Below the pieces are notes generated by a model. That model made no database searches. It saw nothing but the letters and a program-made list of their open reading frames with translations, and was not told the origin of the DNA. Below are positions 33,871 to 44,487 of a DNA stretch of 64,000 nucleotides, piece after piece (position 1 is the stretch's first letter; each line of letters begins with the position of its first letter). Origin of the DNA: Burkholderia cenocepacia (lineage in GTDB: Bacteria; Pseudomonadota; Gammaproteobacteria; Burkholderiales; Burkholderiaceae); NCBI RefSeq assembly GCF_900446215.1, contig NZ_UAQZ01000016.1:310001-374000 (forward strand), written 5' to 3'. Both the position numbers and the translations under genes were made by a program.

Positions 33871-34410
33871 TTATCGACTCTTGCGCGAAAACATCAACGA
33901 ATCGGCGTCGTTGAACCGGATAGGCCGCGGCTCGCCGTAACCGGCTTTCTCCGCGACCCGGATCGATGCGACATTGGTCGGCGCGATCAGGCACACGCTG
34001 CGCTCGAACCGCTGCTGCGCGTCGAGCCATGCGAGCGCGGCCGCGAGCGCCTCGGTCGCATAGCCGCGGCCCTGCGCCCACGTCGCCAGCGCCCAGCCGG
34101 CTTCCGGCACGCCGCGGATCGGCGGTTCGATGTTCCGGTGGAAATCCGCGAAGCCGAGATCGCCGACATAGCGGCCCGACGCCTTTTCGCGAATCGCCCA
34201 GTAGCCATAGCCGAGCAGCGGCCACAGCCCGCGATACGCGAGCATGCGCATCCACGAGTCGCGCGGCGCGGACGGCTCGCCGTTGAAGATGTGCGCGACG
34301 ACGCCGGGTTCCGCCCACATGGCGGCGAGTGCGTCGAAGTCGCCGAGCGGATGGCCTTCGAGCACCAGGCGCGGCGTATCGAGAACGGGCGGGGACGAGA
34401 CGGGTGGCAT
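33871..34410 (-). CDS. GNAT N-acetyltransferase (RimJ/RimL type)
   Basis: A 179-residue acetyl-CoA-dependent transferase. It shows L-D-T-P-R-L-V-L-E-G, the acetyl-CoA loop region W-A-Q-G-R-G-Y-A-T-E-A-L-A-A-A-L, and N-V-A-S-I-R-V-A-E-K-A-G-Y, all typical of the RimJ/RimL subgroup. The acceptor is unknown. It follows the DeoR gene by 32 bases on the same strand and may be the last gene of the amino-sugar operon, where an amino-sugar or protein acceptor would be possible. Confidence 0.88.
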   Translation of the reverse strand: MPPVSSPPVLDTPRLVLEGHPLGDFDALAAMWAEPGVVAHIFNGEPSAPRDSWMRMLAYRGLWPLLGYGYWAIREKASGRYVGDLGFADFHRNIEPPIRGVPEAGWALATWAQGRGYATEALAAALAWLDAQQRFERSVCLIAPTNVASIRVAEKAGYGEPRPIRFNDADSLMFSRKSR

Positions 34411-34442
34411 CGGGTGTCCGGAAAGAGGGGAAAGTCGGGCGG

Positions 34443-35261
34443 CTAGACCGTCAGCACGTCGATGCCGCGCTGGCGCAGGTCGTCGACCACGGCTGCGTCG
34501 GCGCCCGTATCGGTGATCAGCATGTCGAGCTGCTCGACGCTCGCGATTACCGAGAGATTGCGCTTCATCAGCTTCGACGAATCGGCGACCGCGATCACCT
34601 GGCGCGAGATCTTCAGCATCTGCGCGTTCAGTTGCGCTTCGAGCAGGTGCGGCGTCATCAGGCCGATCTCGGGATCGAGGCTGTCGACGCCGAGGAACAG
34701 CCGGTCCGCGTACAGCCCCTGCAGCGCGACGACGGCCTGCGGCCCCGACAGCGAATACGAGTTCGGCCGAAGCTGCCCGCCCGGCATGATCAGGTTGATG
34801 TGCGGCGCGGCCGCGAGCAGCACGGCCACGTTCAGCGCATTGGTGATCACGTTCAGCGATTGCAGCTTCATCGCGAGGATCTGCTTCGCGATTTCCTCGG
34901 TCGTGCTGCCGGAGTCGAGCAGGATCGTTTCGCCGTCGCCGATCAGCGCGGCGGCGGCCGCCGCGATCCGCACCTTCTCCGCGTGACGGAGCTTCTGCTT
35001 GACCGCGATCGGCACCTCGTCGCTTTCGCGCAGCACCAGCGCGCCGCCGTGGGTGCGCAGCACCGCGCCGGCCGCCGCGAGCGCGTTCAGGTCGCTGCGC
35101 ACCGTGACGAGCGAGATGCCGAACCGCTCGGCCAGTTCCTCGACGGTGACCTTCTCCCGCTCGCGCACCAGCTCGCAGATCAGGCGGCGACGTTCTTCGA
35201 CAAGCAGCGGCGCGTGATCGACGGCAGGCGACGGAGGCACTCGGTGAGCGGGCATGTCCAT
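34443..35261 (-). CDS. DeoR-family transcriptional repressor (AgaR-like)
   Basis: A 272-residue regulator. The N-terminal winged helix has R-R-R-L-I-C-E-L-V, V-T-V-E-E-L-A-E-R-F-G-I-S-L-V-T-V-R-S-D-L. The effector domain has D-S-G-S-T-T-E-E-I-A, N-A-L-N-V-A, M-P-G-G-Q-L-R-P-N-S-Y-S-L-S-G and L-F-L-G-V-D-S-L-D, typical of phosphosugar-sensing DeoR proteins. The start could be 35261 or 35255. It is co-directional with AgaS, GatZ and a sugar kinase. The long inverted repeat at 39806-39863 with repeated TTTCGTT blocks is the likely operator, resembling the motif style of AgaR/DeoR proteins. Inducer: probably an amino-sugar or tagatose phosphate (inference). Confidence 0.9.
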   Translation of the reverse strand: MDMPAHRVPPSPAVDHAPLLVEERRRLICELVREREKVTVEELAERFGISLVTVRSDLNALAAAGAVLRTHGGALVLRESDEVPIAVKQKLRHAEKVRIAAAAAALIGDGETILLDSGSTTEEIAKQILAMKLQSLNVITNALNVAVLLAAAPHINLIMPGGQLRPNSYSLSGPQAVVALQGLYADRLFLGVDSLDPEIGLMTPHLLEAQLNAQMLKISRQVIAVADSSKLMKRNLSVIASVEQLDMLITDTGADAAVVDDLRQRGIDVLTV

Positions 35262-35289
35262 TTCGGCAAGACAGGGAGCCGAAATGATA

Positions 35290-36264
35290 TCAAAACCCCT
35301 GGCCGGGCTGGAGCGCATGCAAGGCCGGCGCGTCGAGCGGCATGCCCGCCAGCCGGGCCGCGTGGACCGCCGCGCCGACGTGGGGCCCGAGCCGCGGCGC
35401 GGTGAGCACCGCATCCGGCACGCGGCGCGCGAGCGCGTCGCGCAGCGGCTCGAGCACGCGCGCGCCGGCGTTGAACACGCCGCCGGAATACGACACCGGC
35501 AGCGGTTCGCCGGGCGGCCAGCCGAGGGTGCGCGCGACGCCTGCCGCGAGTTGCGCGAGCTCGTCGGTCGCGCGGTCGATCAGCGCGTGCGCTGCGGGGT
35601 CGCCCGCGTGCGCCGCATCGATCACGAGCCGCGACAGCTGCGCGAAGCGGCTGCGCACCGCGCCCGCATTCACGGCCGCGCACAGGTCGAGATCGTGTTG
35701 CAGCGCGAAGTGCGCGCGCACGATGTCGAACAGCGGCCCGCGCGCGGCGCGGCCGTCCGCCATCCGCGAAAACGCGGCGAGCCCTTCGCGCGCGAGCCAG
35801 TAGGCCGAGCCTTCGTCGCCGAAGACCTCGCCCCAGCCGCCGCAGCGTGCGGCGCGGCCTTCGCGTTGCCCGTACGCGATCGATCCGGTGCCGGCGACGA
35901 TGCTGATGCCGTCGCCGCCGGCCAGCGTGCCGGCCCAGCTGCACACCATGTCGTTGCCGATCCGGTAGCGCTCGCGCGCGAACAGCGGCGCGAGCAGGCC
36001 GTCGAGCTCGGGCAGCAGGCGGCTGTCCTCGCCGTACGCGGGCAGGCCGGCGAATGCGTACGCGACGTCGTCGCGCGCGACGTTCGCCGCGGCCAGCACC
36101 GCATGCACGCCGTCGGCGAGCAGCGTGCGCAGCGCGTCCATGCCGATCTCGAGGTAGTAGCTGGTGGTCGTTTCGTGGCGCGCCCGCACGCGGCCTTGAC
36201 GGTCGATCACCATGAACGCGGTTTTCGTGCCGCCGCCGTCGATGCCGAGAAAGAGTGGAGTCAT
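35290..36264 (-). CDS. BadF/BadG-type amino-sugar kinase (N-acetylhexosamine kinase-like)
   Basis: A 324-residue ATPase of the actin-like fold. Phosphate-1 motif: L-F-L-G-I-D-G-G-G-T-K-T. Phosphate-2 region: I-V-A-G-T-G-S-I-A-Y-G, then C-G-G-W-G-E-V-F-G-D-E-G-S-A-Y-W-L. The adenosine motif lies in Y-S-G-G-V-F-N-A-G. Members phosphorylate GlcNAc, GalNAc or glucosamine. The start overlaps the AgaS-like gene (ATGA at 36261-36264). In this operon the expected product is an amino-sugar 6-phosphate. Strict substrate specificity cannot be read from the sequence. Confidence 0.88.
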   Translation of the reverse strand: MTPLFLGIDGGGTKTAFMVIDRQGRVRARHETTTSYYLEIGMDALRTLLADGVHAVLAAANVARDDVAYAFAGLPAYGEDSRLLPELDGLLAPLFARERYRIGNDMVCSWAGTLAGGDGISIVAGTGSIAYGQREGRAARCGGWGEVFGDEGSAYWLAREGLAAFSRMADGRAARGPLFDIVRAHFALQHDLDLCAAVNAGAVRSRFAQLSRLVIDAAHAGDPAAHALIDRATDELAQLAAGVARTLGWPPGEPLPVSYSGGVFNAGARVLEPLRDALARRVPDAVLTAPRLGPHVGAAVHAARLAGMPLDAPALHALQPGQGF

Positions 36265-37442
36265 GTGGGCTGCCCCGCGTACGGATGAATGGTGACGCCG
36301 GCCACGACGCGGTTGACGGTGCCGGATGCGCTCGGGTTGTCGGGCGTGAGCCCTAGGCGCAGCGACGCGAGCAGCGCGAAACACTGCGCGAGCACCAGCG
36401 CGACGGGCGCGAGCGCGAGATCGGGCAGGCCGGGCGGCAGCGGCACCGTCAGGTCGTCGCCGGACGGTGACGGCGTGCCGGTGTCGCCCGCGTCGTCGGC
36501 CGGCGCGACGCCGACCGACAGTATGCCGGCCGCGCGGTTTTCGCGCCGTAGTTCGCGCAGCAGGTCGAGGTCGTAGCGGCGCGTATGCGGATCGCCGGAC
36601 AGCAGCACGACGACGAGCGTGCGTTCGTCGAGGAACGTTTTCGGGCCGTGCCGGAAGCCGAGCGGCGATTCGGCCATCGCGACGATCAGCCCGTCGGTCA
36701 GTTCCAGCAGTTTCAGCGCGGCTTCGCGCGCGAGCCCGAGCAGCGTGCCGCTGCCCAGATACACGACGCGCTCGGGCAACTGCCGCACGTGCGCGGCGAG
36801 CCGCGACGCGTGGTCGCGCAGCAGCGTGCGCGCGGCGTCGGCCAGCGGCCCGACCGGCATGCCGGCCACGCCGAACGCCCAGGCCGCGCCGAGCAGCATG
36901 CCGCTGAAACTGGACGTCATCGCGAACGCCTGGTCGTGCGTGGCCTCGGGCAACAGCACGACGTGCGCGCGCGGATGCGTGCCGAGGCGGCGGTTCAGCA
37001 TGCCGTCGGCCGCGCACGTGAACGCGAGGTGGCGGCAGCCGTCGACGAGGCGATCCGCCAGTTCGACGGCCGCGACGCTTTCGGGGCTGTTGCCGGAGCG
37101 CGCGAACGACACCAGCAGCGTCGGCACGCCCGGCTGCAGCGTGTCGCCGGGGTTCGCGACGATGTCGGTGGTGGCCACCGCTTCGACGCGGCCGCCGAAG
37201 CGGTGCCGCAGCGCGGGCGCGAGGCACTGGCCGATGAAGGCCGAGCTGCCCGCGCCGGTCAGGACGATGCGCAGGCGGGGATCGGCGAGCAGCGGCGCGA
37301 GAAACGCGTCGAGCGCCGCGCGCTGCGCGTCGACGACGGCATGCACGTCGGGCCAGACGTCGGGTTGCTGGGCGATTTCGCGTGCCGTGTGGGCGGCGTG
37401 GCGGCGGCTGAGGTCGGCGGGATCGAGGTCGAAAAATTCCAT
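36261..37442 (-). CDS. agaS: SIS-domain ketose/aldose isomerase, AgaS-like (galactosamine-6-phosphate deaminase)
   Basis: A 393-residue protein with two sugar-isomerase domains. The first includes I-V-L-T-G-A-G-S-S-A-F-I-G-Q, L-V-S-F-A-R-S-G-N-S-P-E-S, and the second V-V-Y-L-G-S-G-T-L-L-G-L-A-R-E-A-A-L-K-L-L-E-L-T-D-G and E-S-P-L-G-F-R-H-G-P-K. This layout is that of AgaS, which converts galactosamine-6-phosphate to tagatose-6-phosphate plus ammonia. The C-terminal H-P-Y-A-G-Q-P end matches family members. Neighbours (kinase, GatZ, DeoR) support that role. A GlmS-like frlB role is the alternative. Confidence 0.88.
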   Translation of the reverse strand: MEFFDLDPADLSRRHAAHTAREIAQQPDVWPDVHAVVDAQRAALDAFLAPLLADPRLRIVLTGAGSSAFIGQCLAPALRHRFGGRVEAVATTDIVANPGDTLQPGVPTLLVSFARSGNSPESVAAVELADRLVDGCRHLAFTCAADGMLNRRLGTHPRAHVVLLPEATHDQAFAMTSSFSGMLLGAAWAFGVAGMPVGPLADAARTLLRDHASRLAAHVRQLPERVVYLGSGTLLGLAREAALKLLELTDGLIVAMAESPLGFRHGPKTFLDERTLVVVLLSGDPHTRRYDLDLLRELRRENRAAGILSVGVAPADDAGDTGTPSPSGDDLTVPLPPGLPDLALAPVALVLAQCFALLASLRLGLTPDNPSASGTVNRVVAGVTIHPYAGQPT

Positions 37443-37464
37443 GAGCAGATCTGAGGAGAGTCGG

Positions 37465-38760
37465 TCACGCGGCACACGCGTGGAGATACGGACGGACGGC
37501 CGCGGCCGTGCCGTCTTGCAACAGGGCGCCGGCGCGCAACGCGAGCCGTCCTTCGCGGACGGCCTCGTACTGGCGCGGCAGATGCTGGCTGACGAGCGTG
37601 AGCGGCGGCGGCGACGCATCGAGGCGCGCGAGCAGGTCGGCGCACGCGCGTTGCACGACGGGATGGGCCCAGTAGTAGCGGATGCGGTCGCTCAGGCTGT
37701 ACGCGAGATCGAGTTCGAGTTGCGCGCCGGCCGGGTAGTAATCGCGCCAGTGCGCCGGTTCGTTGCGCATCACGCCGAGCACGGTCGCGATGAACCCGTC
37801 GTCGCCGCCGAGCCATTCGCGCTCGATCGCGGCGAGCGACCACAGCGTTTCGCGCATCGCGAAGGTCACGCCGGGGCCGACCTTCAGGATCGCGAAGTGG
37901 TCGCGCACGAGTTGCGCGAGGTTGTCGGGCGTCTGGTAATCGGTCGAATGCGCTTCGAACACGAGCGCGGGTTCCGTTTCGATGAATGCGCTCAGTTCAC
38001 GCGCGTTGCCGGCGTCGTAGTCGATCACCTTGTGATGATCGAACTCGACGCCCGGCTGTACGACCATCGCGATCACGCGCGACCACGCATCGTCGAGGCC
38101 GGCGCGCGCGAACGCGTCGCGGTGCAGCGCGAGCGTCGAGCCGGCCGCTTCGGGCGTGGTGACCGCGACCGCGTCGAGCGTCTCGTGCGCACCGCCGGGC
38201 ACCGGCACCTCGGTGCCGATCACATAGACGGGCGCGTCGCCGCGCGGCGCACCGGCCGCCCACGCGGCCTCGGCGGCGCGGCACAGGCGCACCGCCCGCG
38301 CGGCGATCTCGGCTTCGGGCAACGGCTGCGGATCGTCCGCGCACGACATCGAGCAGTCGAGATGCAGCTTGCGGAAGCCGGCCGCCACGTACTGCGCGAC
38401 CATCGTCTCGGCCTTGTCCATCGCGTGCGCGGCCGGCAGCCGGCGCCATGCGTTCGGGCCGAGATGGTCGCCGCCGAGCAGGATCGCATCGGGGCTCACG
38501 CGTTCGCGCGCGGCGATGTCGAATACGTGGCGACGGAAGTCGTGCGGCGTCATGCCCGTATAGCCGCCGTCCTGGTTGACCTGGTTGCAGGTCGCCTCGA
38601 TCAGCGCGGGGCGTTCGCGCGCCGCGCATTCGCGCAGCGCGGCGGCGATCGCGACCGGATGCGCGGAGCACACGGACGGGATGCCGATCGCGGGTGTGCC
38701 GGCCGGCGCGTGACGCGACGACTGCTTGTGACGGCGGACGAGATCGAGCAGCGGGTTCAT
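37465..38760 (-). CDS. GatZ/KbaZ/AgaZ-type tagatose-phosphate protein
   Basis: A 431-residue protein of the class II D-tagatose-bisphosphate aldolase accessory family. Visible motifs: G-I-P-S-V-C-S-A-H-P, E-A-T-C-N-Q-V-N-Q-D-G-G-Y-T-G-M, L-L-G-G-D-H-L-G-P, K-L-H-L-D-C-S-M-S-C-A-D-D, T-E-V-P-V-P-G-G, and F-E-A-H-S-T-D-Y-Q. The family was first described as a non-catalytic aldolase subunit; AgaZ has later been proposed to be the tagatose-6-phosphate kinase. The catalytic aldolase (KbaY/GatY) is not in the window. GGGGGAA precedes the ATG. It overlaps the DMT gene by four bases. Confidence 0.9.
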   Translation of the reverse strand: MNPLLDLVRRHKQSSRHAPAGTPAIGIPSVCSAHPVAIAAALRECAARERPALIEATCNQVNQDGGYTGMTPHDFRRHVFDIAARERVSPDAILLGGDHLGPNAWRRLPAAHAMDKAETMVAQYVAAGFRKLHLDCSMSCADDPQPLPEAEIAARAVRLCRAAEAAWAAGAPRGDAPVYVIGTEVPVPGGAHETLDAVAVTTPEAAGSTLALHRDAFARAGLDDAWSRVIAMVVQPGVEFDHHKVIDYDAGNARELSAFIETEPALVFEAHSTDYQTPDNLAQLVRDHFAILKVGPGVTFAMRETLWSLAAIEREWLGGDDGFIATVLGVMRNEPAHWRDYYPAGAQLELDLAYSLSDRIRYYWAHPVVQRACADLLARLDASPPPLTLVSQHLPRQYEAVREGRLALRAGALLQDGTAAAVRPYLHACAA

Positions 38761-39659
38761 GCCGATTCCCCCGCCGTGTGGGTTGCCGCGGCGCCTTCCG
38801 GCTGCAGCGCGAGCAGCAGCGCGGCCAGCAGCGCCAGCGCGATGCCCGTGAGCTTGCTGCCGGTCGGCGTCGCACCGGTGACGATCATCGAGATCACCGA
38901 CGTCAGCAGCGGCGCGCCCGCGTTGACGAGCGGCGACACGACGATCGCCTTGCCGAAGCGGAACGCATAGACGAGCGTCAGCGCGCCGATCGCATTCAGC
39001 ACCTGGATCACGGCAGCGAGGCCCGGGCCGCCGATCCCGTAGTTGATCGTGCGGCCGAAGTCGGTCATCCACAGCGCGAACGGCACGCACAGCAGGCCCG
39101 TCAGCGCCATGTAGAAGAAGATCGATTCCGCGTCCATCGTCGCGTTCGCGATCTTGATGAAATACGCCTGCAGCCCCCATGCGACGAGCACCAGCAGCGC
39201 GAGCGCGAACCACAGCCCGAACCGCGCGGGGCCCTGGCCCGACTGGAAGTCGAACAGCGGCAGCGAGCACAGCGCGAGCACGATGCCGGCCACGCCGAGC
39301 TTGCCGGTGCGTTCGCGCAGCAGCAGGAACGACAGCGCGATCGTCAGCGCCGGCGACAGCGACACGATCGGGAACACGAGATACGGCGGCCCCGATTCGA
39401 CCGCGCGGAACAGCAGCATTTGCCCGCCCGCGCCGAGCAGCCCGATCGCGAGCCCGAGCGCCAGCGAACGGCCATCGCGCCGCACACGCCAGCCGGCGCG
39501 GCCGAGCGCGACCAGCGCTGGCGGAATCATCGTGAACGCCCAGACCACGTAGATCAGCGTGTCGGGGAAGCCGTGTTCGGCGGGCAAGCCGGTGAATGCG
39601 CCCCACACGCCCCAGAGCAGGGTCGTGACGAGCGCGTGAACGAGCCAGTTGTTTTGCAT
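38757..39659 (-). CDS. DMT/EamA-type ten-helix permease
   Basis: A 300-residue membrane protein with about ten hydrophobic segments in two homologous halves, each with an EamA-like pattern: first W-L-V-H-A-L-V-T-T-L-L-W-G-V-W-G, later L-L-V-L-V-A-W-G-L-Q-A-Y-F-I-K. The start at 39659 follows a long open upstream extension that lacks protein character. It is the first gene of the minus operon and is therefore probably the importer of the sugar handled by the kinase, or an exporter. DMT proteins are not typical hexosamine importers, so this is a point of interest. Confidence 0.88.
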   Translation of the reverse strand: MQNNWLVHALVTTLLWGVWGAFTGLPAEHGFPDTLIYVVWAFTMIPPALVALGRAGWRVRRDGRSLALGLAIGLLGAGGQMLLFRAVESGPPYLVFPIVSLSPALTIALSFLLLRERTGKLGVAGIVLALCSLPLFDFQSGQGPARFGLWFALALLVLVAWGLQAYFIKIANATMDAESIFFYMALTGLLCVPFALWMTDFGRTINYGIGGPGLAAVIQVLNAIGALTLVYAFRFGKAIVVSPLVNAGAPLLTSVISMIVTGATPTGSKLTGIALALLAALLLALQPEGAAATHTAGESA

Positions 39660-39805
39660 CGGTCGCGTCTTTCGAAGTGGGTTCTGATCCGTCGAATGCT
39701 TTCGTTTGATGCCGTGCAAGGCCAAATCGGAGGCGTTCGGCGGGCGAGCCCGACGACGTTCCAGCAGGGATCGGCAGAAACGTCCGTCGGGAGCGGCCAA
39801 TCTAT

Positions 39806-39863
39806 GATCTTTCGTTTCCTTTCGTTATTAGTGTAAACCACAAACGAAAGAAATCGAAAGATC
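39806..39863. promoter_or_regulatory. Long inverted-repeat operator between divergent amino-sugar operons
   Basis: The 21-base arm at 39806-39826 (GATCTTTCG..., with two TTTCG blocks) is matched by the reverse complement at 39843-39863 with only two mismatches. The arms flank a 16-base AT-rich spacer containing GTGTAAACCAC. Each arm carries direct repeats of CTTTCG spaced about nine to ten bases apart. Repeated TTTCGTTT blocks are typical of DeoR-family operators, including AgaR. It lies in the 363-base gap between the start at 39659 (minus) and 40023 (plus), so one site can control both operons. Confidence 0.8.
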
Positions 39864-40022
39864 GACTAGATTGCCGATCTGCGCGAGACGGATGCGTCGG
39901 CGCACGGCCCTTCTTCACGAGGAATTCCGTATGAACGCTTGCTTTTCCTTTCGATTTCCACTGCCTGCCCGGCGTGCCAGCAGGGCGGCGCGCTGCGTGC
40001 CGTTGCGTCGCGAGGTGCGTCC

Positions 40023-42158
40023 ATGACCACCCGGCGCGCGTTCGTGCAGTGGCTGGCCGCCGGCGCGGCGAGCCCGATTCTGGTCGGCGTCGGCGTGCGC
40101 GATGCCCGCGGCGGCGAGCCGTCGCGCGTCGCGCTGCGTGACGACCGGCTCGTGATCGAGTTCGATCCGGCGATGCGCAGCCGGCTGGCCGTGCGTCGCG
40201 GCGGCGGCACGCGTGCGCTGACCCGCTTCGATGCGAGCGAGACGCTCGAGCAACTGATCGGCCCGGCGCCGGCGCCGACCTCGGACGGCCCCGCGCCCGA
40301 CACGCGGCCGGTGCGCACGATCGATCGCTTCGCGCTCGTCGACGCCGCGCATGCGGACGTCTCCACCGCCTTCGGCGCGGGGCGGCAACTGCGGCTGGTG
40401 GGCCGGTCGGCGCACGGCTTCGAGAAGACGGTGCGCATCACGTTGCTCGACGCGCGGCCGGGCGTCGCGCTGCTCGACACGCAGTTCCGCAACGTCGGCA
40501 CGCAGCCGACCGACGTCCGCGCATGGAACGTCGCCGCGCACCGGCTGCTGCCGGCCGCGGCCGGCGCGGGCGGCTACTGGACCTATTCGGGCGCGAGCCA
40601 CGCGGACCGGCGCGACTGGGTGCAGCCGGTCAAGGCCGGCTTCGATCAGCGCAATTTCATGGGCATGAACGCGTCGGACTATGGCGGCGGCACGCCGGTC
40701 GTCGACGTGTGGCGGCGCGGCCAGGGCATCGCGCTCGGTCACCTCGACATCGTGCCGCGCCTCGTATCGCTGCCGGTGAAGGCGGTGCGCGACGAAGTCT
40801 CGCTCGGCCTGCGCGGCGAGCAGACGGTCACGCTCGCGCCGGGCGCGACGCTCGATACGCCGACCGCCTTCGTGATGCTGCACGACGGCGACTATTTCGT
40901 CGCGCTCGATACGTACCGGCAGATGATGGGCGCGCAGGGTTTCCATGCGCCGCGGCCGCCGGCGAGCGCGTACGAGCCGATCTGGTGCGCGTGGGGCTAC
41001 GAGCGTCAGTTCAGCCTCGACTACGTGCGCGCGACGCTGCCGAAGGTGCAGGAACTCGGCTTCAAGTGGGCGGTGCTCGACGACGGCTGGCAGCGGCGCA
41101 CCGGCGACTGGGTGCCCGACCGCGCGAAATTCCCGGCCGGCGACGCGGACATGAAGGCGCTCGTCGACGACATCCATGCGCGCGGCCAGAAGGCGCGGCT
41201 GTGGATCGCGCCGCTCGCGGTCGCGCCGGGCAGCGACGAACTGCACGACCACACCGACATGCTGCTGCTCGACGCGGACGGCGCACCGCAGGCGATCACC
41301 TGGTGGAACAGCTTCTATCTGTGCCCGGCCTACGAGAAGACGCAGGCGCACATCGCCGCACTGATGAAGAAGGTGATCGGCGAGTGGGGCTTCGACGGCG
41401 TGAAGATCGACGGCCAGCACCTGAACGGCGTCGCGCCGTGCTACAACCCCGCGCACCGGCATGCGCGGCCGGAGGATTCGGTCGAGCACCTCGCCGATTT
41501 CTACCGCGTGTTCCATGACGCCGCGCATGCGATCAAGCCGGATGCGGTCGTCGAAGTGTGCCCGTGCGGCACCGCGTACGCGTTCCACAACATGCGCTAC
41601 ATCGACCAGGCGCCGGCGTCCGATCCGCTGTCGAGCTGGCAGGTGCGCCACAAGGGCAAGACGCTGAAGGCGCTGATGGGCGCATCGTCCGCGTACGCGG
41701 GCGATCACGTCGAACTGAGCGACGGCGGCCGCGATTTCGCGTCGGCGGTGGGCGTCGGCGCGGTGATCTCGACGAAGTTCACGTGGCCCGTCGATCCGAA
41801 ACCGAAGGACTCGTTCCTGCTGACGCCCGAGCACGAGCAGGCATGGCGGCACTGGGTCGAGGTCTACAACGCGCACCGGCTCGCCGAGGGCCGCTATCGC
41901 GGCGAGCTGTACGACATCGCGTTCGACAAGCCCGAGGCTCACGTCGTGGAAAAGGACGGCGTGCTGCATTACGCGTTCTACGCCGAGCGCTGGAGCGGCC
42001 CGGTCGCGCTGCGCGGCCTGCAGCCCGGCCGGTCATACCGGATCGTCGATTACGCGAACGGCAATCGCGAGGTCGGCCGCATCGCGCCGGGGCACGACGC
42101 GATCGCATTGCGCTTCGAGCATGCGGCGCTGCTGCGCGCCGAGCCGCTCGACGCGTGA
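40023..42158 (+). CDS. Exported glycoside hydrolase family 36 alpha-galactosidase
   Basis: A 711-residue enzyme. The start at 40023 follows GAGGTG and opens a Tat-type signal (T-T-R-R-A-F-V-Q-W-L-A-A-G-A-A-S-P). An N-terminal beta-sandwich domain (to about 310) is followed by the TIM barrel with Y-E-P-I-W-C-A-W-G-Y and K-W-A-V-L-D-D-G-W. The nucleophile candidate is D463 in G-F-D-G-V-K-I-D-G-Q-H, and the stretch V-C-P-C-G-T lies further on. GH36 contains alpha-galactosidases and alpha-N-acetylgalactosaminidases, so either activity is possible. Export is predicted to the periplasm or beyond. It heads the plus arm of the divergent locus. Confidence 0.9.
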   Translation: MTTRRAFVQWLAAGAASPILVGVGVRDARGGEPSRVALRDDRLVIEFDPAMRSRLAVRRGGGTRALTRFDASETLEQLIGPAPAPTSDGPAPDTRPVRTIDRFALVDAAHADVSTAFGAGRQLRLVGRSAHGFEKTVRITLLDARPGVALLDTQFRNVGTQPTDVRAWNVAAHRLLPAAAGAGGYWTYSGASHADRRDWVQPVKAGFDQRNFMGMNASDYGGGTPVVDVWRRGQGIALGHLDIVPRLVSLPVKAVRDEVSLGLRGEQTVTLAPGATLDTPTAFVMLHDGDYFVALDTYRQMMGAQGFHAPRPPASAYEPIWCAWGYERQFSLDYVRATLPKVQELGFKWAVLDDGWQRRTGDWVPDRAKFPAGDADMKALVDDIHARGQKARLWIAPLAVAPGSDELHDHTDMLLLDADGAPQAITWWNSFYLCPAYEKTQAHIAALMKKVIGEWGFDGVKIDGQHLNGVAPCYNPAHRHARPEDSVEHLADFYRVFHDAAHAIKPDAVVEVCPCGTAYAFHNMRYIDQAPASDPLSSWQVRHKGKTLKALMGASSAYAGDHVELSDGGRDFASAVGVGAVISTKFTWPVDPKPKDSFLLTPEHEQAWRHWVEVYNAHRLAEGRYRGELYDIAFDKPEAHVVEKDGVLHYAFYAERWSGPVALRGLQPGRSYRIVDYANGNREVGRIAPGHDAIALRFEHAALLRAEPLDA

Positions 42159-42283
42159 GCGTCACCCCGCAACACCGCGTACCACCGCCCGGGCCACGTG
42201 ACGTCGCGCATCACCGGGCAACCGGCAGTTCCGCACCGCGCAGTTCCATTCGTCATTCCGATCCCTCCACTGGAGATGCTTCG

Positions 42284-43165
42284 ATGAAAAAAATTGCACG
42301 CAACCTTTCCGGTGTCGCGGCGCTCGCGCTGTGCGCCTCGATCCTGCAGGCCTGCGGCGACGGGTCGTCCGATCCGTTGTCGGCCAAGGCCTTTGCCGCG
42401 TCGCCGCCGGCCGTGGCGGCGCCCGCGCGCGCCGCGTCGCACTGGACGCCGGCGGTGGGCGATACGTGGCAATGGCAGCTCAAGGGCAAGCTCAATACGT
42501 CGTACAACGTGGCCATCTACGACATCGACCTGTTCGATACCGACGCGGCGACGATCGCGGCGCTCAAGCAGGCGGGGCGCAAGGTCGTCTGTTATTTCTC
42601 CGCGGGCAGTTCGGAGAACTGGCGGCCCGATTTCTCGAAGTTCAAGGCATCCGACCAGGGCAACAAGCTCGACGACTGGGAGGGCGAGCGCTGGCTCGAC
42701 ATCCGTTCGGGCAACGTGCGCGACATCATGACGGCCCGCCTCGACCGCGCGGTGGCGAAGGGATGCGACGGCGTCGAGCCGGACAACGTCGACGGCTATG
42801 CGAACGACACCGGTTTCCCGTTGCAGGACACCGATCAGTACGCGTTCAACGTGTTCATCGCGAACGAGGCGCACAAGCGCAATCTGGCGGTCGGGCTGAA
42901 GAACGACGTCGATCAGCTCGTGGCGCTCGAACCGTCGTTCGACTTCGCGGTGAACGAGGAGTGCAACGAGCAGAAGGAGTGCGACGGCTACACGGTGTTC
43001 ACGTCGAAGAACAAGCCGGTGCTGAACGCCGAGTATGCGGGCAAATACCGGACGCCGAGCGGGCAACGCACGCTGTGCAATGCGGCGCGCGCGCTCAACA
43101 TGCGCACGCTCGTGCTGGCGAAAAAGCTCGACGACAGCTACCGGTTCAGCTGCGACGGCGCCTGA
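42284..43165 (+). CDS. GH114 endo-alpha-1,4-polygalactosaminidase-like lipoprotein
   Basis: A 293-residue lipoprotein: signal A-L-A-L-C-A-S-I-L-Q-A-C, with C24 as the lipidation site. The GH114 barrel begins W-T-P-A-V-G-D-T-W-Q-W-Q-L and shows Y-N-V-A-I-Y-D-I-D-L-F-D, V-V-C-Y-F-S-A-G-S-S-E-N-W-R-P-D, G-C-D-G-V-E-P-D-N-V-D-G-Y and F-A-V-N-E-E-C. The acidic pairs D-I-D and E-P-D lie where catalytic carboxylates are expected. Characterised members cleave alpha-1,4-linked galactosamine polymers (fungal galactosaminogalactan, Pel). A GGAGATG box precedes the ATG. It is 125 bases after GH36 and is followed by a hairpin and a porin. Confidence 0.88.
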   Translation: MKKIARNLSGVAALALCASILQACGDGSSDPLSAKAFAASPPAVAAPARAASHWTPAVGDTWQWQLKGKLNTSYNVAIYDIDLFDTDAATIAALKQAGRKVVCYFSAGSSENWRPDFSKFKASDQGNKLDDWEGERWLDIRSGNVRDIMTARLDRAVAKGCDGVEPDNVDGYANDTGFPLQDTDQYAFNVFIANEAHKRNLAVGLKNDVDQLVALEPSFDFAVNEECNEQKECDGYTVFTSKNKPVLNAEYAGKYRTPSGQRTLCNAARALNMRTLVLAKKLDDSYRFSCDGA

Positions 43166-43173
43166 TCGAACCG

Positions 43174-43191
43174 CGCCCGTCGTGACGGGCG
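43174..43191. terminator. Perfect 8-bp hairpin after the GH114 gene
   Basis: CGCCCGTC (43174-43181) and GACGGGCG (43184-43191) form a perfect stem with a two-base centre, 8 bases after the GH114 stop. It has no T tract. It may stabilise the hydrolase mRNA or partly stop transcription ahead of the porin gene. Confidence 0.4.
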
Positions 43192-43340
43192 AACCTGTGT
43201 GACCGGTGTCCGCGCGCGCACGCTCCGTGCCCGGGCGTGCGCGTCGCGCGCATCGGATGCCGCGATCCGGCGCGCGATGCATGGCCGATGCCGCATCGAC
43301 GTCCGTTCAAATCGATTCGCACTACTTATCCAACAATACG

Positions 43341-44468
43341 ATGAAAAATTGCATGCTGATTGCAGGCGCTGCCGTGGCGGCCGCGCTTTCCGTCGCCGCG
43401 CGCGCGGAGGGTTCGGTCACGCTGTACGGCACGATCGATACGGGTGTCGCGTATCTGAACCACGCGGAAGCCGGGAAGTCGCGCGTATCGATGTCGTCGG
43501 GCGCGTTGTCGGCGAACGAATGGGGATTGACCGGCAGCGAGGCGCTCGGCGGCGACATGAACGCGATCTTCACGCTCGAGAACAATTTCGACGTCGGGAC
43601 CGGCCAGCTCGACGGCGGCCGGCTGTTCGGCTCGAAAGCGTTCGTCGGCGTCGCGTCCGCGACGTGGGGCACGCTGACGCTCGGCCGGCAGAACGATCCG
43701 GTGACGGATCTCGTGCAGCCGATCACGGCCGACGCGTTCAGCGGGCTCTTCGCGCCGCCCGGCGACGTCGACAACTACGACAGCAGCGTGACGTTCAGCA
43801 ACGCGGTCAAATGGACGAGCGCGGCGTGGCACGGCGTGACGGTTGCGGCGATGGTGTCGCCCGGCGGCGTGGCCGGCGCATCGGGGTCGGGGCTCGCGTA
43901 TGCCGGCGCATTCGGCTATGCGGACGGTCCGCTGAGCGCGGCGGCCGGCTACCTGCACGTCGACAACGGCAACGCGCTCCGTTCGACGCGCGGCGCATCG
44001 TCGGCCGATTCGTTCTTCAACAGCGCGGTGAACCGCGCGTATGCGTCGGCGCGGTCGATCGAAGTCGCGCGCGCCGGGGTGCAGTATGCGATCGGCAACG
44101 TGACCGTCGGCGCGGCGTTCAGCTTCAGCGAATACCGGCCCGACGCGTCGTCGACGTTCGTGCACGCGCAGCGCTACCGGAACGGTTCGGCATTCGCGCA
44201 ATGGCAGGCGCTGCCGTCGCTGCTGACGATCGTCGGCTACAACTTCACGTGGTCGGGCGGCGATTCGTCCGCGCGCTATCACCAGGTCAATGCCGGCGTC
44301 GACTATCTGCTGAGCAAGCGCACCGATCTCTATACGACGGTCGGCTACCAGCACGCGAACGGCTTCAACGGAACCGGGCCGGCCCAGGCCGTGATCGGGT
44401 CGTACAACGTCGATGCCGGCACGAATTCGCAGTTGCTCGCGATCGTCGGCATCCGGCACCGGTTCTGA
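43341..44468 (+). CDS. General porin (Burkholderiales OmpC-like)
   Basis: A 375-residue outer-membrane porin. A signal peptide (M-L-I-A-G-A-A-V-A-A-A-L-S-V-A-A-R-A) precedes the mature start E-G-S-V-T-L-Y-G-T-I-D-T-G-V-A-Y. This is the classic N-terminus of trimeric 16-strand porins, followed by S-R-V-S-M-S-S-G, F-T-L-E-N-N-F and the C-terminal aromatic-ended strand R-H-R-F. A second in-frame extension upstream to 43206 has no signal-peptide character. No clear ribosome site is seen. It is the third gene of the plus arm and likely admits sugar fragments released by GH36 and GH114. Confidence 0.9.
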   Translation: MKNCMLIAGAAVAAALSVAARAEGSVTLYGTIDTGVAYLNHAEAGKSRVSMSSGALSANEWGLTGSEALGGDMNAIFTLENNFDVGTGQLDGGRLFGSKAFVGVASATWGTLTLGRQNDPVTDLVQPITADAFSGLFAPPGDVDNYDSSVTFSNAVKWTSAAWHGVTVAAMVSPGGVAGASGSGLAYAGAFGYADGPLSAAAGYLHVDNGNALRSTRGASSADSFFNSAVNRAYASARSIEVARAGVQYAIGNVTVGAAFSFSEYRPDASSTFVHAQRYRNGSAFAQWQALPSLLTIVGYNFTWSGGDSSARYHQVNAGVDYLLSKRTDLYTTVGYQHANGFNGTGPAQAVIGSYNVDAGTNSQLLAIVGIRHRF

Positions 44469-44487
44469 GCCCGGTTGCCGGCGCGCG

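Follow-up and report, generated by a model that had tools for sequence, protein, structure and literature searches.

A predicted AgaR-controlled cassette for scavenging galactosamine-rich polymers in Burkholderia cenocepacia

We analysed a 64,000-nucleotide stretch of Burkholderia cenocepacia contig NZ_UAQZ01000016.1 (positions 310,001 to 374,000), referred to here as the window, from an 8.04 Mb genome of 18 contigs that belongs to the Burkholderia cepacia group. It holds a cassette of eight genes for which we propose a role in feeding on polymers rich in galactosamine (GalN). See Table 1 for the coordinates of all features. The genes form two divergent arms around one predicted operator. Outward from it, the minus arm runs from an EamA permease through agaZ, agaS and a kinase to agaR, with overlaps or short gaps between genes, and the plus arm carries a GH36 enzyme, a GH114 lipoprotein and a porin, in that order. 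All eight reading frames are open, and families were assigned with Pfam and NCBIfam. An earlier note on this DNA, made from the letters alone, had named the same contents for the plus arm (matched here by PF02065, PF03537 and PF13609) and for the minus arm (kinase, AgaS, GatZ/AgaZ, DMT permease and DeoR repressor), and both lists agree with the family matches. Its divergent arms with a common operator are borne out as well: gene ends and families were confirmed, and the spacer contains CTTTCG-type repeats. The twin-arginine start of GH36 and the lipobox of GH114 are motif readings made by eye, not tool predictions. The GC content of the cassette is 69.7%, compared to 70.5% and 68.7% in the flanks, and gives no hint of foreign origin.

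Table 1. Coordinates (positions in the window) of the cassette, its genes and its flanking gene
Feature	Position	Strand	Basis or remark
GNAT acetyltransferase, flanking core gene, outside cassette	33871..34410		adjoins agaR
Extent of all-or-none cassette	34410..44486	.	empty-site comparison with L138-L141
agaR, DeoR-family repressor, 270 aa	34443..35255	-	NF040755 top NCBIfam model; E. coli AgaR likeness
BadF/NagK-type sugar kinase, 324 aa, proposed galactosamine kinase	35290..36264	-	PF01869
agaS, galactosamine-6-phosphate deaminase/isomerase, 393 aa	36261..37442	-	TIGR02815; E. coli AgaS likeness
agaZ/gatZ, 431 aa, proposed tagatose-6-phosphate 4-epimerase	37465..38760	-	TIGR02810; GatZ active-site residues
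EamA/DMT-superfamily permease, 300 aa, proposed galactosamine importer	38757..39659	-	PF00892
AgaR-type operator, predicted	39809..39860	.	two CTTTCG and two CGAAAG units
Leader open reading frame, 31 codons	39931..40026	+	AGGAA ahead of ATG; kept in five genomes
GH36 alpha-glycosidase, 711 aa, proposed exo-alpha-galactosaminidase	40023..42158	+	PF02065; twin-arginine start
GH114 lipoprotein, 293 aa, proposed endo-alpha-1,4-galactosaminidase	42284..43165	+	PF03537; lipobox LQAC, Cys24
Gram-negative porin, 375 aa	43341..44468	+	PF13609; present in own and all four other cassettes

The GH114 protein scores 293.1 bits on PF03537, for which the curated cut-off is 27. It matches the Aspergillus endo-alpha-1,4-galactosaminidase Ega3 (solved chain 6oj1) at 4e-71, with 54% identity over 213 columns. 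The available text of a review (PMC10485009) reports that Ega3 activity depends on Asp189 and Glu247; these residues correspond to Asp167 (in PDN) and Glu225 (in NEEC) of the GH114 protein, with a spacing of 58 residues in both enzymes. We propose from this Ega3-like sequence that the protein is an endo-alpha-1,4-galactosaminidase. Ega3 itself is described as specific for deacetylated stretches in the accessible part of PMC12054363. Identity to Ega3 is 54-55% for the five cassette copies, 49% for the copies at Burkholderia loci L037 and L038, 46-47% for Vibrio and Pseudoalteromonas enzymes, 38-40% for other Burkholderia copies and 35% for the fungal FsGH114. The base of a 27-row GH114 tree was unresolved, with long branches, and we therefore claim no transfer between fungi and bacteria. 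Related genes also occur on plasmids. Vibrio plasmids typed as conjugative carry GH114 at 46-48% identity close to transposase and recombinase genes (L146 9923-10780, L148 9923-10789), and on a plasmid of Pseudoalteromonas sp. THAF3 the GH114 gene (L147 10001-10825) adjoins pelG, pelF and a PelD gene, with a second annotated polygalactosaminidase at the far end.

The best solved matches of the GH36 protein are 8x1b (8.6e-78) and 9awt (9.7e-76), and the next best is 7.1e-17. The 9awt chain, FpGalNase, is labeled as an A-type blood alpha-D-galactosamine galactosaminidase and 8x1b as an alpha-galactosidase. The 8x1b sequence is nearly identical to that of 9awt and has Leu in place of Pro at FpGalNase position 566, and the available text of PMC11762096 describes this change in the F. 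plautii enzyme. Therefore, we took both chains as FpGalNase. The same text names Trp317, Asp346, Asp347, Trp387, Lys461, Asp463, Tyr464, Cys513 and Asp532 of FpGalNase. Eight of these have counterparts in the GH36 protein, namely Trp324, Asp353, Asp354, Trp394, Lys461, Asp463, Cys515 and Asp534, where Asp463 was assigned by eye from the K-x-D motif at a point at which the aligner put a gap. Among solved structures, the GH36 protein groups with FpGalNase and apart from ordinary alpha-galactosidases. Its candidate sugars are GalN, N-acetylgalactosamine (GalNAc) and galactose.

Minus-arm proteins have relatives in E. coli and at GH36 loci in two other phyla. AgaR is 39% identical to E. coli AgaR and 43% identical to the AgaR of a Bacteroidales GH36 locus, and AgaS is 47% identical to its E. 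coli namesake. The nearest solved chains of the kinase are amino-sugar kinases and a hexokinase, and it shares 38% identity with the kinase of the F. plautii GalNase locus. The permease is 46% identical to the permease beside agaR-agaS-GH36 in the Bacteroidales locus.

AgaZ scores 579.0 bits on TIGR02810, above the cut-off of 568.8, in a family named as a non-catalytic aldolase subunit. It is 51% identical to KbaZ and 48% identical to GatZ of E. coli, and all seven of the GatZ residues Cys20, Glu44, Asp87, His88, Glu171, His257 and Lys279 are kept. According to the available text of PMC11907403, E. coli GatZ and KbaZ convert fructose-6-phosphate to tagatose-6-phosphate, and a GatZ supports growth of Agrobacterium on galactitol, which suggests the reverse reaction. 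The genome has one PF01116 gene, between pyruvate-kinase-like and purC-like genes (neighbors named by reading). Its product passes the TIGR01521 fructose-bisphosphate aldolase model (570 vs 496) and falls below the tagatose models (219 vs 444). No second class II aldolase (PF01116) was found in the genome that could stand for the KbaY/AgaY of the classical aga pathway, and PF00365 is absent from it. Because the sole aldolase is of the fructose-bisphosphate type, PF00365 is absent, epimerase activity is reported for GatZ and KbaZ and the seven residues are kept, we favor epimerization: AgaZ is probably a tagatose-6-phosphate 4-epimerase that yields fructose-6-phosphate. A review (available text of PMC12118421) repeats a proposed kinase role for AgaZ, which counts against this assignment. 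The earlier note had observed that no KbaY is present, which stands, and had turned to distant genes as one way to account for it; if AgaZ is a 4-epimerase, the "missing" KbaY is probably explained without them.

The predicted operator covers 52 bases and consists of two CTTTCG and two CGAAAG units with 10 bp spacing within each pair. It is nearly constant in the five genomes with the cassette, while its surroundings drift. A pattern derived from the operator, and thus drawn from the site itself, had three matches in the window with up to two mismatches, all in the spacer, vs 0.07 expected. The CTTTCG unit is also repeated in the agaR-kbaZ spacer of E. coli, and AgaR sites hold CTTTC. We predict that these repeats are an AgaR operator that serves both arms. 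A tandem pattern built on the known sites was run across the 8.04 Mb genome with up to one mismatch. Its two exact matches fall within the cassette, and a one-mismatch site lies on another contig; the reversed control had two matches. Further genes under a tandem AgaR operator elsewhere were considered and rejected, since no exact copy lies outside the cassette, in a search that did not extend to single or otherwise spaced CTTTCG units. A promoter scan found none, and a terminator scan found no more than in shuffled sequence. Between the operator and GH36 lies a leader open reading frame with a ribosome-binding pattern (AGGAA) of its own, and its stop codon and the start codon of GH36 share the letters ATGA. 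The overlap and the leader's start, MNACFSFR, are kept in five genomes, and in two of them its length varies by 24 or 27 bases with the frame kept. The leader also spans a further CTTTCG unit.

GH114 matches occur in 23 of 65 genus genomes, 19 of them better than 1e-40. Besides our own, we examined 21 strong genus GH114 loci of 16-19.5 kb each for aga genes at an E-value of 1e-6. The whole cassette, in the same gene order, was present at four, so that five of the 65 genomes, our own included, carry it. These four answer the earlier note's suggestion to look in other Burkholderia for GH36, GH114 and porin beside agaS/gatZ. The GH36 copies are 94-96% identical in B. lata, B. cepacia LK29 and B. 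arboris, the last on a 1.26 Mb replicon. In 299 sampled genomes of the family, GH36 matches occur in eight (four at full length) and AgaS matches in 14; four of these have E < 1e-200, and the fifth best stands at 2e-16. The four genomes with a full-length GH36 are also the four with a strong AgaS match, a coincidence with a chance of about 3e-9 (hypergeometric, kinship ignored). The linkage of the hydrolases with agaS/gatZ in related genomes, on which the earlier note had staked its prediction, therefore holds for GH36, with full-length copies only where AgaS is strong. Apart from our own genome, no GH36 match at E up to 1e-30 was found in 369 genomes of the class.

We also inspected the cassette site in seven of the 38 genus genomes that have the GNAT gene but not the cassette. 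In four of these (L138-L141), homology ends at 34407-34409 and restarts at 44469-44487, with 140-364 bases between. In the remaining three, other open frames occupy the site (L142 3511-9643, L143 7365-9629, L144 10355-15721), and two of these occupied sites carry scars: L144 keeps the end of agaR (71%, 49 residues) and L142 that of the kinase gene (62%, 32 residues). The empty, refilled and scarred sites indicate that the cassette is gained or lost whole, at a site that varies between genomes. The eight genes are an all-or-none unit, in which the hydrolase and catabolic arms are found or missing together, and dN/dS (nonsynonymous over synonymous substitution rates) is 0.01-0.26 for the eight genes against four relatives (32 comparisons). 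The earlier note's left edge at 33871 did not hold, as it takes in the GNAT gene, a core gene that 43 of the 65 genus genomes carry with at least 78% identity. We rejected GNAT as a cassette member, since this core flank is present in 43 genomes and only five have the cassette. One of the 21 strong GH114 loci, L037 (7610-10222), is a decayed and diverged second cassette, and its genome carries an intact copy too. Its best pieces are 70-75% identical and others lower, and fragments of agaR, permease and GH36 lie beside an open GH114 gene with a dN/dS of 0.17.

GH114 by itself is not tied to aga genes. In the loci of other Burkholderia GH114 genes (L037-L053), seven proteins form one sequence cluster, and the member that was scanned, at L040 (4380-5090), is an AA10-type lytic polysaccharide monooxygenase. 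This neighbor hints at a fungal-wall or chitin setting for the other Burkholderia GH114 genes.

From the families, catalytic residues, operator, linkage and presence or absence as a unit, all read from the sequence, we infer activities, step order, inducer, localization and polymer source as follows. The cassette is likely an AgaR-controlled system for feeding on alpha-1,4-linked GalN-rich polymers of the galactosaminogalactan or Pel type, to which we give a probability of about 0.7. The GH114 lipoprotein would cut chains internally and the porin would admit the oligosaccharides, from whose ends the Tat-exported GH36 would remove GalN units in the periplasm. The EamA permease would import GalN, and the BadF-type kinase would convert it to GalN-6-phosphate. 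AgaS would then deaminate and isomerize this product to tagatose-6-phosphate and ammonia, and AgaZ would epimerize tagatose-6-phosphate at C4 to fructose-6-phosphate, which would enter central metabolism with no need of a tagatose-bisphosphate aldolase. Acting at the single operator, AgaR would keep both arms silent, and an intermediate of the pathway would lift the repression. The galactose of galactosaminogalactan would require other genes. The scavenging of galactosamine polymers that the earlier note predicted is thus supported, and an Ega3-like GH114, a GH36 near FpGalNase and the linkage of both arms strengthen the prediction.

Several observations weigh against this reading. AgaR scores 240.2 bits on NF040755, below the cut-off of 260, yet this is its best-scoring model; AgaS scores 450.1 bits on TIGR02815, below the cut-off of 529.2; and the kinase is far below every NCBIfam cut-off, with an N-acetylglucosamine kinase as its best model. 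The agaR spacer of the Bacteroidales locus has no CTTTCG unit. The GH36 protein is just 30-31% identical to FpGalNase and has two added residues beside the nucleophile (KIDGQH vs KGDY). Furthermore, FpGalNase Tyr464 has no counterpart in it; a Gly follows the nucleophile, likewise in the Bacteroidales locus, and we therefore do not class it as an FpGalNase orthologue. In the available text of PMC12054363, the fungal FsGH114 was inactive on Pel and the T. maritima homologue was inactive on galactosaminogalactan, so a PF03537 match alone is no proof of activity. The same text states that the bacterial GH114s tried, one of them from B. cepacia DSM7288, were not properly soluble in E. coli. Additionally, no aga gene was found at 16 of the 21 other strong genus GH114 loci (E-value 1e-6, 16-19.5 kb per locus), a NagA above cut-off is encoded elsewhere in the genome, and a PfkB-like kinase on another contig (L097) might phosphorylate tagatose-6-phosphate.

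The last two of these points bear on alternative chemistries. With L097 as tagatose-6-phosphate kinase, the housekeeping class II aldolase could cleave the product and AgaZ would serve as the helper subunit that its family name implies. This classical end route concerns the last steps only and is compatible with the rest of the proposed pathway. In its favor, L097 reaches about 253 bits with the models of 1-phosphofructokinase and 6-phosphofructokinase II and 108-118 bits with those of tagatose-6-phosphate kinase. Against it, L097 passes the 1-phosphofructokinase subfamily cut-off and none of the equivalog cut-offs; the other 13 PfkB-type matches in the genome are weaker. Given its place on another contig, an aldolase of the fructose-bisphosphate type and the epimerase activity reported for GatZ and KbaZ, we regard this route as possible but doubtful. 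A different target, GalNAc glycans, is somewhat less probable still, and we consider it unlikely. Here the substrate would be acetylated polymer stretches or mucin or blood-group chains, GH36 would free GalNAc, the kinase would make GalNAc-6-phosphate and the housekeeping NagA would deacetylate it before AgaS. The kinase's best model, though far from its cut-off, and the GH36 difference at Tyr464 fit this scheme, and because NagA is encoded elsewhere the absence of AgaA alone does not exclude GalNAc. The earlier note was thus correct that the cassette has no deacetylase, while its use of this absence as a pointer to deacetylated substrate is weakened. However, the genome has no other exact tandem operator, Ega3 prefers deacetylated stretches (available text of PMC12054363) and the closest solved GH36 with a named activity acts on GalN (accessible part of PMC11762096).

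Other alternatives concern what the hydrolases are for. That they chiefly break the biofilms of competitors or fungal mucilage, with feeding secondary, would suit the report that nanomolar Ega3 breaks up biofilms of A. fumigatus as well as Pel-dependent biofilms of P. aeruginosa (available text of PMC10485009), as well as the lack of catabolic genes at most other genus GH114 loci. We find it improbable here, where the hydrolases share an operator region with import and catabolism genes and are present or absent with them as a unit. Remodeling of an own Pel-like polymer is very improbable. A 46% identical GH114 may do so beside the pel genes of Pseudoalteromonas sp. THAF3, but PelG was not found in our genome, which makes self-remodeling unlikely, and a full catabolic arm stands beside the hydrolases.

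Important biofilms of fungi and bacteria have galactosaminogalactan and Pel as matrix polymers. If polymer feeding is true, they would be food as well as armor, and the cassette would offer candidate enzymes for biofilm breakdown. It also provides a candidate galactosamine permease and a candidate galactosamine kinase, and presents a natural case of an AgaZ that seemingly works without its own aldolase partner. The component families are known, and the combination is a variant of the aga pathway. No cassette of this kind seemed to be described among the matches listed from the open-licence literature, judged by title and the start of the abstract. Whether it is the first dedicated bacterial poly-alpha-1,4-galactosamine utilization cassette, with an aldolase-free aga pathway (AgaZ as 4-epimerase) and a GalN-importing EamA permease, we see as evenly balanced.

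A non-exhaustive scan of 84,980 genomes, based on a pair of short peptide patterns, yielded 20 GH36 loci, three of them in Burkholderia. Nine of the 17 others were compared with the window proteins, with open frames mapped in five. Relatives of the catabolic genes were present at two of the nine, in two other phyla; at the other seven GH36 alone was found, some on short contigs (4-10 kb). In F. plautii (L069), the GalNase is accompanied by a BadF kinase (38%), a SIS-domain protein and AgaZ (44%), all as in our cassette, and the locus has its own class II aldolase, a GPH-type symporter, a GH4 protein and a protein matching solved chain 6n1a, which we take to be the F. plautii GalNAc deacetylase. 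No GH114 occurs within the 22 kb compared. The second locus (L066), from an uncultured rumen Bacteroidales, likewise brings permease, AgaR, AgaS, a GatZ-like protein and GH36 together. Its GH36 (42%) follows AgaS (35%), the GatZ-like protein and a PfkB kinase, and AgaR (43%) and the permease (46%) are divergent from this AgaS-GH36 group. Unlike the cassette, it has the PfkB kinase in place of BadF and a SusC/SusD-type pair (a TonB-plug receptor and SusD, behind the other genes) in place of the porin, with no GH114 within the 17 kb compared. A. fumigatus Ega3 resembles our GH114 at 54% identity over 213 columns and in its catalytic acids; it belongs to fungal polymer synthesis (available text of PMC12054363), whereas the GH114 here lies within a bacterial catabolic cassette. 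Finally, the E. coli aga/kba system (agaR-kbaZ-agaS-kbaY) shares AgaR (39%), AgaS (47%) and AgaZ (51%), and its agaR spacer likewise contains CTTTCG-type repeats. Compared to it, the Burkholderia cassette lacks the phosphotransferase system, the deacetylase and KbaY, and adds two hydrolases predicted to be exported, a porin, a cytoplasmic kinase and an EamA permease.

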